From the NCBI RefSeq assembly GCF_030546645.1, contig NZ_JAUOTO010000007.1, positions 434,001 through 498,000 on the forward strand: 64,000 nucleotides of DNA, in the 5' to 3' direction. Made by a program: the position numbers and the translations under genes. The notes below the pieces were generated by a model, which made no database searches, was not told where the DNA came from, and worked only from the letters and a program-made list of their open reading frames with translations. Below, in pieces: positions 5,311 through 14,163 of this stretch (position 1 is its first letter; every line of letters begins with the position of its first letter). The stretch is from Flavitalea plasmicola (GTDB taxonomy: Bacteria > Bacteroidota > Bacteroidia > Chitinophagales > Chitinophagaceae).

Positions 5311-5922
5311 TCAATTCACCTTATATAAGGTGGCAAGGTCTTTCAATTCAATGACATTGCCTGTATTCGTCTTCTCGAAGATCCGGTTCTTTACAGTGGA
5401 GATCGTATTCCATTTCAGGTTCAGGGCGCTGGCGATCTCGTTGGTGCCGGTGCCTTTCAGCATATAGTGCAGTATTTCCAGCTCCCGGGGGGTGAAGTCG
5501 GAGAATGGATTATTGAATCCCGATAACTCGCCATGATCCGGTGCGGGAGGATCATTTTGAAGAAAGCGGCGCAATAGTTTAATGGTTTCATCCTCATGGA
5601 TCGTTTTGCTCACATAATGATAGATGCCGTATTGCCGCAACGCCTTGGCATAGATCCCGGCAGGCTGCATGGAAAATATCATGATCCGCAGTTCGGGGTA
5701 CAACTTCTGGATGGCCGGCAAAACTTCCAGGCTGCTGCCATCCGAGAGGATGATATCCAGCACCAGGTGAGAATACGTTTTTTTGGAAAGCTCTTTCATC
5801 AGCTCGCCGCAGCTGGATACTTCACCCATATCCGGGTAGCCGAAATACAGCTCAAACAGCAGCTTCAGTCCTCTTCGGGTGATACTATGATCGTCTGCAA
5901 GTAGAATATTCGGCTTTGCCAT
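5311..5922 (-). CDS. LuxR/NarL-type response regulator
   Basis: A 203-residue regulator: receiver domain at residues 4-120 with acidic pair D10/D11, phospho-acceptor D56 (LVLDIILSDG), S84 and K106, then a LuxR-type helix-turn-helix at about 140-200 (FTPRELEILHYMLKGTGTNEIA, ...NTISTVKNRIFEK). The ATG at 5922 was chosen because it lies 2 nt after the stop of the terpene synthase gene (5925-5927); an upstream in-frame ATG at 5973 would lie inside that gene. This tight coupling shows translation together with the terpene synthase. The histidine kinase two genes upstream is the natural partner. Confidence 0.9.
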   Translation of the reverse strand: MAKPNILLADDHSITRRGLKLLFELYFGYPDMGEVSSCGELMKELSKKTYSHLVLDIILSDGSSLEVLPAIQKLYPELRIMIFSMQPAGIYAKALRQYGIYHYVSKTIHEDETIKLLRRFLQNDPPAPDHGELSGFNNPFSDFTPRELEILHYMLKGTGTNEIASALNLKWNTISTVKNRIFEKTNTGNVIELKDLATLYKVN

Positions 5923-5924
5923 AC

Positions 5925-6893
5925 TTAATTCAGATAAATGTGCGGATACCGGGTCGTCTCCCTGGTGCTCCAATCTATATTTCCTTTCATCAGGTATTCA
6001 AGGGCATGGACATATTTATGCAGCATAAAGTTAGTTTCTTTATCATATATATACGCCCTTCCTGACAGATCGACGAATTCATGGACCGTATTGTCATGCA
6101 CCCGCGCCGCCTCACTGATGGCCTTCTCCATGCTGAGGGAGTGTTTTCTTTTCAAAATGGTCACCAGATTGAATTCGGCGCCGTTCGACTGCGCTACCTC
6201 CTTACTCAGCGAAAAAAGGTCATTGGCAAAACAAATGGCGTTGCGGCAGATCTCCGTCAGCTTGGTTACCAGGGGCATCCTGTATATTTCTTCGCTCAGG
6301 TTGATCCTCCCCGTCACTTCCAGCGAATCCGTGGCCAGATTGGCCGCCCCCAGGTATTGCCGGATGCCGATGTATTCATTCAGGTCAGGCGTCCTGCCAT
6401 CCATGATATGCCTTAACTGCCACATGCCGCCCGCAAACATATCCTTGATCCCCTGGATGAACTTTTCCTGCCAGCCCGTTCCAGAGCGCAGGAGCATCCG
6501 CCGCCAGAAATCGCTCAATGCCGTAAGGATGGGACCGTCCTTTTCCAGCGAACAGATCTTATTGGTTTGCAGCACTTCCAAAAAGTCGCTTTCAAACTGC
6601 AGGAAAGCCCGCTTGTCTTTTATAATATCCTGCTCGTCCAGCTGATCGTCCACAATAAATAATAAAGTATTCAGATCGCACCAGGCACAAAGATCGACAT
6701 ACTCCCCATATGGATAGCTTCGGGCGATCATGGAAGCAAATCGCTGCTGTTTATACTGCGTCAGCATCTCATAGGAGCTGATCAGCTTAAAGTCGAGGAG
6801 CCATTGCTGTGTATGTGCTTCAATTTCATTGATGGCGGGATGGATGGTCGACGAGAACGGGCAATACAGCCCCGGTATCGTGTAGAGGTGCAT
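5925..6893 (-). CDS. Class I terpene synthase (terpene cyclase)
   Basis: A 322-residue single-domain terpene cyclase, which ionises a prenyl diphosphate and cyclises it. All class I marks are present: the Asp-rich motif DDQLDE (residues 82-87), the pyrophosphate-sensor Arg R178 exactly 46 residues before the NSE triad, the NSE triad NDLFSLSKE (N224, S228, E232), and the C-terminal Arg-Tyr pair R315-Y316. Length is that of bacterial sesqui- and diterpene cyclases; cyclases of this kind are known from Chitinophaga. Substrate chain length and product cannot be told from sequence. It sits between a histidine kinase gene (82 nt upstream) and a response regulator gene (2 nt downstream); no prenyltransferase, P450 or other tailoring gene is next to it. 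Confidence 0.9.
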   Translation of the reverse strand: MHLYTIPGLYCPFSSTIHPAINEIEAHTQQWLLDFKLISSYEMLTQYKQQRFASMIARSYPYGEYVDLCAWCDLNTLLFIVDDQLDEQDIIKDKRAFLQFESDFLEVLQTNKICSLEKDGPILTALSDFWRRMLLRSGTGWQEKFIQGIKDMFAGGMWQLRHIMDGRTPDLNEYIGIRQYLGAANLATDSLEVTGRINLSEEIYRMPLVTKLTEICRNAICFANDLFSLSKEVAQSNGAEFNLVTILKRKHSLSMEKAISEAARVHDNTVHEFVDLSGRAYIYDKETNFMLHKYVHALEYLMKGNIDWSTRETTRYPHIYLN

Positions 6894-6975
6894 AGTGATA
6901 AGGTTTTATTTGTGTTCGAATTTAACACTTAAACAATTACTTACACCGCTCGTATAAGTTTCCGTATAGCCCAAA

Positions 6976-8361
6976 CTAAGAATTAACAAATAGCTTATCC
7001 AGGCGGGGCAGGGCCCTTTCCACCGGCGCCGCCAGCGGTATATAAACAGTAATGCTGGTCCCCACTCCTTTGCTGCTGCTGACAGTGATCTTACCCTTCA
7101 GTGTCTCTACCAATTGCCGCGTGATATGCAATCCAAGGCCTACCCCCTCCCTGTTCTGGTCAGTGCTCTTTTCCGTCACGAAAGGCTGTTCGAACAACCG
7201 GTCCAGCTTTTCACTGTTCATCCCCTCTCCCGCGTCTTCCACATTGATCTTCCAGTAGCTGCCCTCTTTTTCGATCCGGACAAACACTTCGCTCTCCTTC
7301 CGGGTGAACTTGATCGCATTGCTGATGATATTGGTGGCGATCTGGGTAATTTTCAAACGGTCGCAATCGACAAACTCAGGAATATCTTCCGACACATGGA
7401 GATGGATATGCACTTTCTTTTCCGACGCGGAATACTGCCCGATATCCACCAGGTTGCGTATCAACAGCCGGACATTGATCGGTTCCGGATACACCTGGTC
7501 ATGGATCCCGGAAGAATACTTGGAATATTCCAGGATATTGTTCAGCACCATTTTCAGGTTTTCACAGGCCGACCGGAGGTTGTATATCAGCTTTTTCCAA
7601 TCCTGCAGCTTCTCAACACTCTCCATCTCGCTGAGGATCTGGATGATGACAAAGACGCCAAAAAATGACCCCCGCACTTCGTGATAGGCATTACTGATAA
7701 AGATCGTCTTCATCCTGTTCTCCTTTTCCTCCTTCTCCAGGTTGATCTCGATCTGGCCTGAATAGTCCTTCAGCCTGTTTAATAGCCGGTTATTATTCCT
7801 GGCATACAGATAAAAAATAAGGATCACCAGGAAAATGATCACCCCGTAAGAACCCCACCGCATAAAATACCTCAATGACTCGCTCACCTGGATAGGTTTG
7901 ACGAACTCATACTTGAAGTTCATCTCCAGCAGCACCAATACCATTATCGTCACCGCGATACAAAATGCACGTATGGCCATCTTCTCGAAAATGAAGAGTA
8001 CGCTCCCAATCAGGAAGACGATCATCAGCTGCGCTTCTACCGCCTTGCCTATCAGGCTGCTGAAATAAAAAGTAGCGGCATTGAGGATCAGGTAGAACCC
8101 TATATTGGCGGCATCGTACCACCTGCGGTAATTCATCCATACCAGCGAGCCGATCAGGGCGGCTTCCAGATAGCTTCCCAAAAGGACGAGGGGTTTGCCG
8201 CTCATAATGAAAAAAAGCAATCCGACAGTGAGGTTGATCAGCGCGATCCAAAGACTCATAAGATTTACGCCAATACAAATGCCGCGCTTGGAGTCGTGAT
8301 CAGCAAGTCCTTCAGATCCCGCATAGACAAGGGAGCTCCAGAGTTTTTTTAACTTGTTCAT
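6976..8361 (-). CDS. Membrane sensor histidine kinase
   Basis: A 461-residue kinase with about six membrane spans in residues 30-185 and no obvious periplasmic sensor domain, followed by a DHp domain with phospho-acceptor H227 (NAYHEVRG) and a HATPase domain with N box (NIISNAIKFT), G1 (DAGEGM) and G2 (GVGLGLHI). A seven-membrane-segment-like intramembrane sensor suggests detection of a signal in or near the membrane. It is the first gene of a minus-strand cluster: kinase, terpene synthase, LuxR response regulator. The 460-bp upstream gap carries a structured element at 8624-8758. Confidence 0.9.
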   Translation of the reverse strand: MNKLKKLWSSLVYAGSEGLADHDSKRGICIGVNLMSLWIALINLTVGLLFFIMSGKPLVLLGSYLEAALIGSLVWMNYRRWYDAANIGFYLILNAATFYFSSLIGKAVEAQLMIVFLIGSVLFIFEKMAIRAFCIAVTIMVLVLLEMNFKYEFVKPIQVSESLRYFMRWGSYGVIIFLVILIFYLYARNNNRLLNRLKDYSGQIEINLEKEEKENRMKTIFISNAYHEVRGSFFGVFVIIQILSEMESVEKLQDWKKLIYNLRSACENLKMVLNNILEYSKYSSGIHDQVYPEPINVRLLIRNLVDIGQYSASEKKVHIHLHVSEDIPEFVDCDRLKITQIATNIISNAIKFTRKESEVFVRIEKEGSYWKINVEDAGEGMNSEKLDRLFEQPFVTEKSTDQNREGVGLGLHITRQLVETLKGKITVSSSKGVGTSITVYIPLAAPVERALPRLDKLFVNS

Positions 8362-8623
8362 AGATTGGGCTTAAAGAGTAGACGGAAGGAGAGGATAGTA
8401 GCAGTCAGGTGATAGATGCTGTGAAAATAACACTTATTTCTTATAATATGCCATCCGCCGTGCAACGGGAAAATGAATTTTTGTTATAATACTATCTCTA
8501 TACGAGCGCCTAAGAAGATGCCCTGAAATCTTTTATTTTTTCTTGTTCCATTGGAATAAAACATTATACCTAGACATAATTCTACGGCGGATTCTATAGG
8601 AAATTATACTTTACAGGTCTAAA

Positions 8624-8821: not shown

Positions 8822-9229
8822 TCAACACACCGGCGGCCGCTGAGCTTTTTTCCCGGACAGAAGCATCGCCTCCCGCAACATACTTTTCAATGCTTCCAGA
8901 CCCTGCGCCTTCGGATAATGATAAACTTCGGAATAAGCCAGTAAGGAGGCATCCGGCTTAAGATCGGAATAAATGATCACCGGGATGCTTTCATATCGTT
9001 CGTCGTTCCGCAGCAGCTCAAGAAACTCCCTGCCATTCATGACAGGCATTTTCATGTCCAGGAAAACGATATCGGGAATGGCGATCTCCTGGCTTTCCAG
9101 TTTGTCCCATGCATCCTGGCCATGTAAGGCATAATAACAAAGTATATCCGGGTCAACATTTTCCAATGTCTCCCTGAATATATGCGCATCCTCATAGTCG
9201 TCATCGACAAGTAGAAATTTTTGTTTCAT
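8822..9229 (-). CDS. Stand-alone receiver-domain protein (CheY-like)
   Basis: A 135-residue single receiver domain with no output domain: acidic cluster D9-D11 (VDDDYEDA), phospho-acceptor D58 (IVFLDMKMP), S88 and K107 (YHYPKAQG). The YEDA...HIFRETLE pattern is that of the phytochrome-type (Rcp1-like) receivers common in Bacteroidota. Such proteins work by protein contact or as phosphate shuttles in phosphorelays. It lies on the same strand as, and 460 nt upstream of, the histidine kinase, which could be its phosphodonor; this is inference from position only. Confidence 0.9.
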   Translation of the reverse strand: MKQKFLLVDDDYEDAHIFRETLENVDPDILCYYALHGQDAWDKLESQEIAIPDIVFLDMKMPVMNGREFLELLRNDERYESIPVIIYSDLKPDASLLAYSEVYHYPKAQGLEALKSMLREAMLLSGKKAQRPPVC

Positions 9230-13874: not shown

Positions 13875-14163
13875 AAATGGTTATTTTTAAAATTTTTTAT
13901 TGAATAAGTCAATTAATAACGTAAAACTATTGTTCCAAAGCGCGCAAGTCAAGCCAAACTTTACGTTCGGTATAAAGTTTTTACCCATCGTATTATGCCG
14001 GACTCTCCTTTAGGTTACCCAACACCGTAAAAAAAGATTTGAAACCTGTGAAATATCGGACGAAACGGTAAAAAGTCATGTTGCTCCCGCGGGGTTAAGC
14101 TTTTGTTAAACCGGATTAGTGGTTTTCGGTATCTTTACAAATTCAAGAAATCACACCACACCA

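Follow-up and report, generated by a model that had tools for sequence, protein, structure and literature searches.

Bacteria encode signal synthase-sensor modules such as CqsA/CqsS, LqsA-LqsR-LqsS and JqsA-JqsS-JqsR; CqsS and LqsS, kinases with six helices, are reported (PMC3376566, PMC3566124, PMC3285556) to be encoded alongside the synthases with which they are thought to be inherited and to co-evolve. Here we analyze a locus of Flavitalea plasmicola within a 64,000-nucleotide stretch of contig NZ_JAUOTO010000007.1 (hereafter the window). On its minus strand, the gene of a class I terpene synthase (TPS) follows that of a membrane histidine kinase after 82 nucleotides (nt) and is itself followed, after 2 nt, by the gene of a LuxR-type response regulator. 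This order and these spacings had been read from the DNA letters in an earlier note (the original prediction), and open reading frames (ORFs), Pfam matches and coordinates bear them out. We tentatively propose that the locus exemplifies a module that recurs in Chitinophagaceae, in which a class I TPS accompanies a sensor kinase with one distinctive membrane region and a terpenoid is the probable ligand. In window coordinates, the genes and their defining parts are:

8361..6976, minus strand: membrane sensor histidine kinase, 461 amino acids (Pfam HATPase_c, 1.8e-28)
7807..8361, minus strand: N-terminal membrane sensor region, kinase residues 1-185 (from alignment A1 of 31 kinases)
6893..5925, minus strand: class I terpene synthase, 322 amino acids (Pfam Terpene_syn_C_2, 9.6e-38)
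6633..6650, minus strand: aspartate-rich motif DDQLDE, TPS residues 82-87
6198..6224, minus strand: NSE motif NDLFSLSKE, TPS residues 224-232
5922..5311, minus strand: LuxR-type response regulator, 203 amino acids (Pfam Response_reg, 5.7e-15, and GerE, 1.9e-11)

The TPS scores 130.4 bits on the class I terpene synthase domain PF19086 (cut-off 23.7) and has all catalytic motifs: DDQLDE (from residue 82), R178, NDLFSLSKE (from residue 224) and RY (residue 315), which we take to be the aspartate-rich motif, the arginine sensor, the NSE motif and the RY pair, respectively. Domain match and motifs confirm that the enzyme was correctly called a class I terpene synthase with its motifs intact. Its best match among solved sequences is (+)-T-muurolol synthase 9hqd (1.8e-34), and judging from the nearest characterized relatives it would make a lipophilic terpene, probably a sesquiterpene. 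As the protein stays below the cut-off of every NCBIfam synthase model, the product cannot be named. Structure prediction from the single sequence gave a pLDDT of 37.5.

We found PF19086 TPS genes in 26 of 394 sampled Chitinophagaceae genomes and in 5 of 395 genomes drawn from the whole phylum; two of the five belong to the window's genus. In the fetched regions a histidine kinase directly adjoins 39 of 69 TPS genes, spread over eight genus codes; without the four regions fetched via the regulator (L118, L122, L124 and L125) the count is 35/65, and after clustering of the TPS at 70% identity, 26 of 45 clusters have a kinase neighbor. Kinases make up 35 of the 117 genes adjacent to a TPS versus 1 of the 383 genes lying three or more genes off; the background, from 20 further stretches in three genomes, is 3/227 genes. 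Genes were called with a simple longest-ORF script, and window neighbor counts cover genes starting up to position 14000; the profile iterations for kinases and TPS both drew on one ORF set, and other kinase types may be missed. When only 1.5-kb flanks were considered, a kinase was present at 16 of the 32 TPS loci of the 26 TPS genomes and, in the same genomes, at none of 13 loci of the control enzyme SQS_PSY (squalene/phytoene-synthase). The second control, ketoacyl synthases, had no kinase at any of the best 30 loci and a receiver-domain gene at one of them. We rejected plain chance as the cause of the adjacency on the basis of the background genes and the two control enzyme families. The association of TPS with kinase genes across Chitinophagaceae is real and wide.

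At eight loci, including that of the window, the TPS lies directly between the kinase and a LuxR regulator. The other seven come from three genus codes (L015, L108, L109, L111, L118, L122 and L125, of which L118, L122 and L125 were fetched via the regulator), and in all seven the TPS is inverted. At L233, from G641, a relative that falls outside the order, a short kinase and a LuxR regulator stand in a row with two inverted TPS genes, and there is no sensor region. At L017, L094, L145 and L234, three or four TPS genes are clustered within a few kilobases.

A membrane sensor region is common to 38 of the 39 TPS-neighbor kinases, a count that is partly circular because most kinases used for the sensor profile were TPS neighbors. 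The kinases that carry it are of two kinds, plain ones accompanied by a LuxR regulator, like that of the window, and hybrid ones with a receiver; at L111, L113, L118, L122 and L125 the hybrid kinase is adjoined by a second, short HATPase gene (233-263 amino acids). Seven of the eight genus codes with kinase-TPS neighbors have this sensor, in varying orientation. Searches with the sensor profile, in which 8 candidates per genome were scored so that counts are lower bounds, yielded at least 62 kinases in at least 29 of the 394 Chitinophagaceae genomes and, in 395 genomes of the phylum, nothing beyond weak matches outside the family. A TPS lies within 3.5 kb of 33 of the 62 sensor kinases found, and a sensor kinase within 3.5 kb of 34 of 63 TPS genes, where about 0.2 would be expected. 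Counted by genome, 26 of the 394 have a TPS, 29 the sensor and 22 both (Fisher 3.5e-26, relatedness ignored). TPS genes stand beside one sensor type in many relatives, and it is therefore probable that the sensor controls the terpene or reacts to it.

Regulators adjoining a biosynthetic gene are a familiar arrangement in the cluster-situated two-component regulators of secondary metabolism, and the main rival explanation is of this kind. It holds that the kinase answers to a cue, external or from the membrane, that has nothing to do with the terpene, and that the regulator switches the neighboring TPS on, the terpene being an output (a volatile, a defense compound or a membrane component) and not a ligand. 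We regard this as a serious though somewhat doubtful possibility. The many sensor kinases with no TPS next door fit it well, and at the window locus the 2-nt TPS-regulator junction, together with the absence of any terminator-like site between the three genes on the minus strand in a pattern scan, favors a single transcript. Orientation elsewhere argues the other way: 25 of the 34 TPS-sensor pairs are convergent, 7 same-strand and 2 divergent, so co-transcription is not the common feature. The original prediction that the cyclase is translated with the regulator is therefore not supported as a general principle, given also the inverted TPS of the other seven wrapped loci. A further point against regulation in answer to another cue is that one sensor family goes with very diverse TPS, including a clade lacking DDxxD at the usual place.

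This clade comprises 22 TPS-like proteins (L015, L019, L101-L115, L118, L122, L124, L125 and L143), of which 20 have LND at the aligned place, mostly as LNDxMGR[DE]; the NSE motif and the terminal RY are largely kept. L124 was left out of the TPS tree, and a kinase adjoins 18 of the 21 clade members in the tree. Such TPS-like proteins might serve in the cytosol as isoprenoid sensors, binding the kinase and controlling it; the best candidates would be in this clade, where the aspartate-rich motif is missing and a kinase is so often next door. We consider this very unlikely, as the window TPS keeps all its catalytic motifs and falls outside the clade.

Across 38 TPS-kinase pairs, TPS distances correlate with sensor distances at r=0.64, a value reached by 0 of 2000 free shuffles and by 0 of 5000 within-genome partner shuffles (mean 0.39, sd 0.07). 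TPS and kinase co-diversify beyond what within-genome shuffles produce. On the TPS tree the kinase-neighbor label needs 11 changes versus 22.3 in shuffles, and on the kinase tree, which leaves out L059 (a second copy of L020, described below), the TPS label needs 9 versus 18.7. The window kinase belongs to a clade of 12 rows (99*), which consists of non-hybrid kinases.

Linkage and co-diversification make it more likely that the kinase reads a terpenoid. In the mechanism we propose, the kinase would read, within the membrane, the lipophilic terpene made by the neighboring TPS, or a close isoprenoid or precursor. Phosphotransfer from kinase to regulator would then alter transcription, probably including that of the TPS itself; by adjacency, the two are putative phosphotransfer partners. 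A wider claim, that bacteria of Chitinophagaceae use terpenes as cell-cell or self signals and that the pairs diversified jointly, each kinase recognizing the terpene of its own TPS, seems to us rather unlikely.

The nearest relative among the matches listed from a scan of genome contigs, which returned at least one locus, is L020 (JAFKGQ010000003.1, a Chitinophagaceae metagenome-assembled genome; G006:C32), and G006 belongs to the window's genus. L020 is syntenic with the window locus (kinase 81% and regulator 93% identical), but only 64 nt separate kinase and regulator and the TPS is gone. Within this gap, 42 nt align with the TPS gene at 40 positions and another stretch matches the last TPS codons, so the TPS stood between kinase and regulator in the ancestor and was deleted in G006. 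Kinase and regulator are under purifying selection between window and L020 (dN/dS about 0.09 and 0.04), and in this one relative the TPS is dispensable to the kinase-regulator pair. The gene-order comparison that had been suggested for relatives thus gives a divided answer: the kinase-TPS-regulator combination recurs, at seven further loci, and the same-strand layout is absent from the nearest relative. The window's genome contains a second pair (G000:C11, L015), with an inverted TPS between kinase and regulator; in its G006 ortholog (60% and 73% identical, downstream genes 71-85%) kinase and regulator are directly adjacent. G006 has another TPS (C8, 55%), like G000:C12 (53%), and neither adjoins a kinase.

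Several observations weigh against a module built around a terpenoid ligand. No kinase neighbors 30 of the 65 TPS genes, and no PF19086 TPS lies near 29 of the 62 sensor kinases. Regions were covered for 24 of these 29 (G353:C21, C12, C23, G104 and G224 being left out), and on the favorable side we count UbiA-type genes, another isoprenoid enzyme family, which adjoin 2 of the first 20 TPS-less sensor kinases and 1 of four more on the same strand as the kinase (L206 and L217 by Pfam, L239 by sequence likeness only); the remaining neighbors, ten being scanned, are mixed. The kinase and regulator of G006 outlast the loss of their TPS, and the G006 ortholog of the L015 pair shows neither a TPS nor a TPS remnant. 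Beyond its G006 ortholog, the window regulator is closest to those of L127 and L128 (66-68% in the regions compared), which pair with kinases lacking this sensor and have no TPS beside them, arguing against a fixed three-part unit. Finally, kinase core distances follow TPS distances as strongly (r=0.62) as sensor distances do, which means that the sensor has no special share in the signal and that linked inheritance could yield it by itself.

Survival of kinase and regulator after TPS loss fits both leading explanations. It is as expected of a cluster-situated regulator answering another cue, and under a ligand model the kinase left behind would listen to the terpene of a paralog or of a neighbor. 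The equal co-diversification of kinase core and sensor, together with the lability of the TPS at a given locus (L020 and the G006 ortholog of L015), speaks for simple co-inheritance, in which a shared DNA segment would carry TPS and kinase along and neither would directly regulate the other. We judge this improbable: kinase-TPS neighbors recur across eight genus codes, in seven of them with this sensor, and in changing orientation, the enrichment is gone three or more genes away, and no mobile-element gene occurs among the ten window neighbors scanned.

Pfam gives no HisKA match in the window kinase, which carries a His box (H227 in NAYHEVRG) identical in L020; His and ATP-binding boxes are thus present in the kinase, and a receiver and an output domain in the regulator. 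Hydropathy indicates 5 helices in the window sensor region and, at the same threshold, 6 in 33 of the 62 sensor kinases. The window sensor region has no Pfam match. MASE7 (PF20967) was tried as its identity and rejected, as it matches 5 of 31 sensor regions (best 2e-7) and not that of the window, even at E up to 1. NCBIfam and Protein Data Bank (PDB) searches of the sensor regions returned nothing convincing and no quorum-sensing kinase, and the sensor profile gave two matches among solved structures (best E 0.54). The full window kinase matches the NCBIfam entry for LuxQ solely via the kinase core (residues 205-445). In the regulator, the putative phospho-acceptor is D56 (position counted by eye). 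We set the regulator start at the ATG 2 nt past the TPS stop because the L020 regulator starts at the corresponding ATG; a longer, TTG-started frame reaches 5973, overlapping the TPS.

The noncoding parts of the locus contain the following features:

6894..6975, no strand assigned: kinase-TPS gap, 82 nt, with no counterpart in L020
5317..5332, minus strand: terminator-like hairpin at the 3' end of the regulator gene, by pattern match only
6947..6956, minus strand: TATACGAGCG in the kinase-TPS gap, candidate operator and a weak lead
8499..8508, plus strand: TATACGAGCG upstream of the kinase, candidate operator and a weak lead

Terminator-like sites are barely enriched across the scanned region (6 versus 3.6 in shuffles), and the Bacteroidota promoter consensus, with one mismatch allowed, has no site either in the kinase-TPS gap or ahead of the kinase gene. 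The two copies of TATACGAGCG are the only exact ones in the window; the 10-mer was chosen by eye, with a rough chance estimate of about 0.07 for one 10-mer common to both gaps, and L020 has no copy, as chance would also give. As an operator for the regulator it is a candidate and a weak lead.

A family scan of ten neighboring genes in the window identified TatC, TPR, deoxyhypusine synthase-like, NmrA, AraC, single receiver domain, ACP phosphodiesterase, DUF2911 and asparagine synthase genes, and one gene with no match. The earlier remark that prenyltransferases and oxidases are absent nearby holds for these ten, among which we found no terpene-pathway gene of either kind and no encapsulin. The single-receiver gene lies upstream of the kinase at 8822-9229, where L020 has a GroEL-like gene, recognized by eye, at L020:6431-8140. 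Elsewhere, the TPS of L098, L099 and L100 carry an odd DDYFVDD motif, and that of L099 adjoins an SrpI-like encapsulin shell gene.

Many bacterial terpenes have no known role, and a sensor family that travels with TPS indicates the place at which the compound is read, or else the need for it. Should terpenes prove to be the ligands, bacterial signals would gain a new chemical class; should they not, the sensor family still reveals dedicated regulators of terpene genes. We found no description of a TPS-kinase link in the open-licence literature on bacterial terpene synthases with kinases, two-component systems or autoinducers, in agreement with the original prediction, which knew of no family description. 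The word kinase is absent from the main text of the open-licence terpene and Bacteroidetes papers examined, and in the available part of a paper on myxobacteria kinases appear as regulated genes only.

Among described systems, cluster-situated two-component regulators resemble the module in adjoining a biosynthetic gene, and differ from it in that here one sensor family goes with one enzyme class, mostly tail-to-tail, and no other pathway gene occurs among the window neighbors scanned. A further parallel is offered by the terpene cyclases linked to family 2 encapsulins (NCBIfam NF041167/NF041168), where a class I TPS also has a conserved partner that is no enzyme; the partner of the window TPS is a different one. 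Chitinophagaceae enzymes described previously, 18-hydroxydolabella-3,7-diene synthase (PMC5588592) and CjCsS, CjNdtS and DsJS (PMC12723471), are, as far as the available parts of these papers go, like the window TPS in enzyme class and host family; neither text contains the words kinase, gene cluster, genomic context or regulator. The closest likeness in layout is to the Cqs, Lqs and Jqs modules. The window enzyme is a PF19086 terpene synthase and not a CqsA/LqsA-type synthase; the module at the window locus is therefore not a Cqs or Lqs member and is alike in layout only. No CqsS/LqsS-type family appears among the NCBIfam matches of the 31 sensor regions. In the layout of those modules, an enzyme that makes a small lipophilic compound is encoded next to a membrane kinase of several helices, which is hybrid or has a separate regulator. 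The window locus has the same arrangement, with a five-helix sensor kinase adjacent to the synthase, and by analogy with CqsA/CqsS and LqsA-LqsR-LqsS the probable ligand would be a terpenoid.

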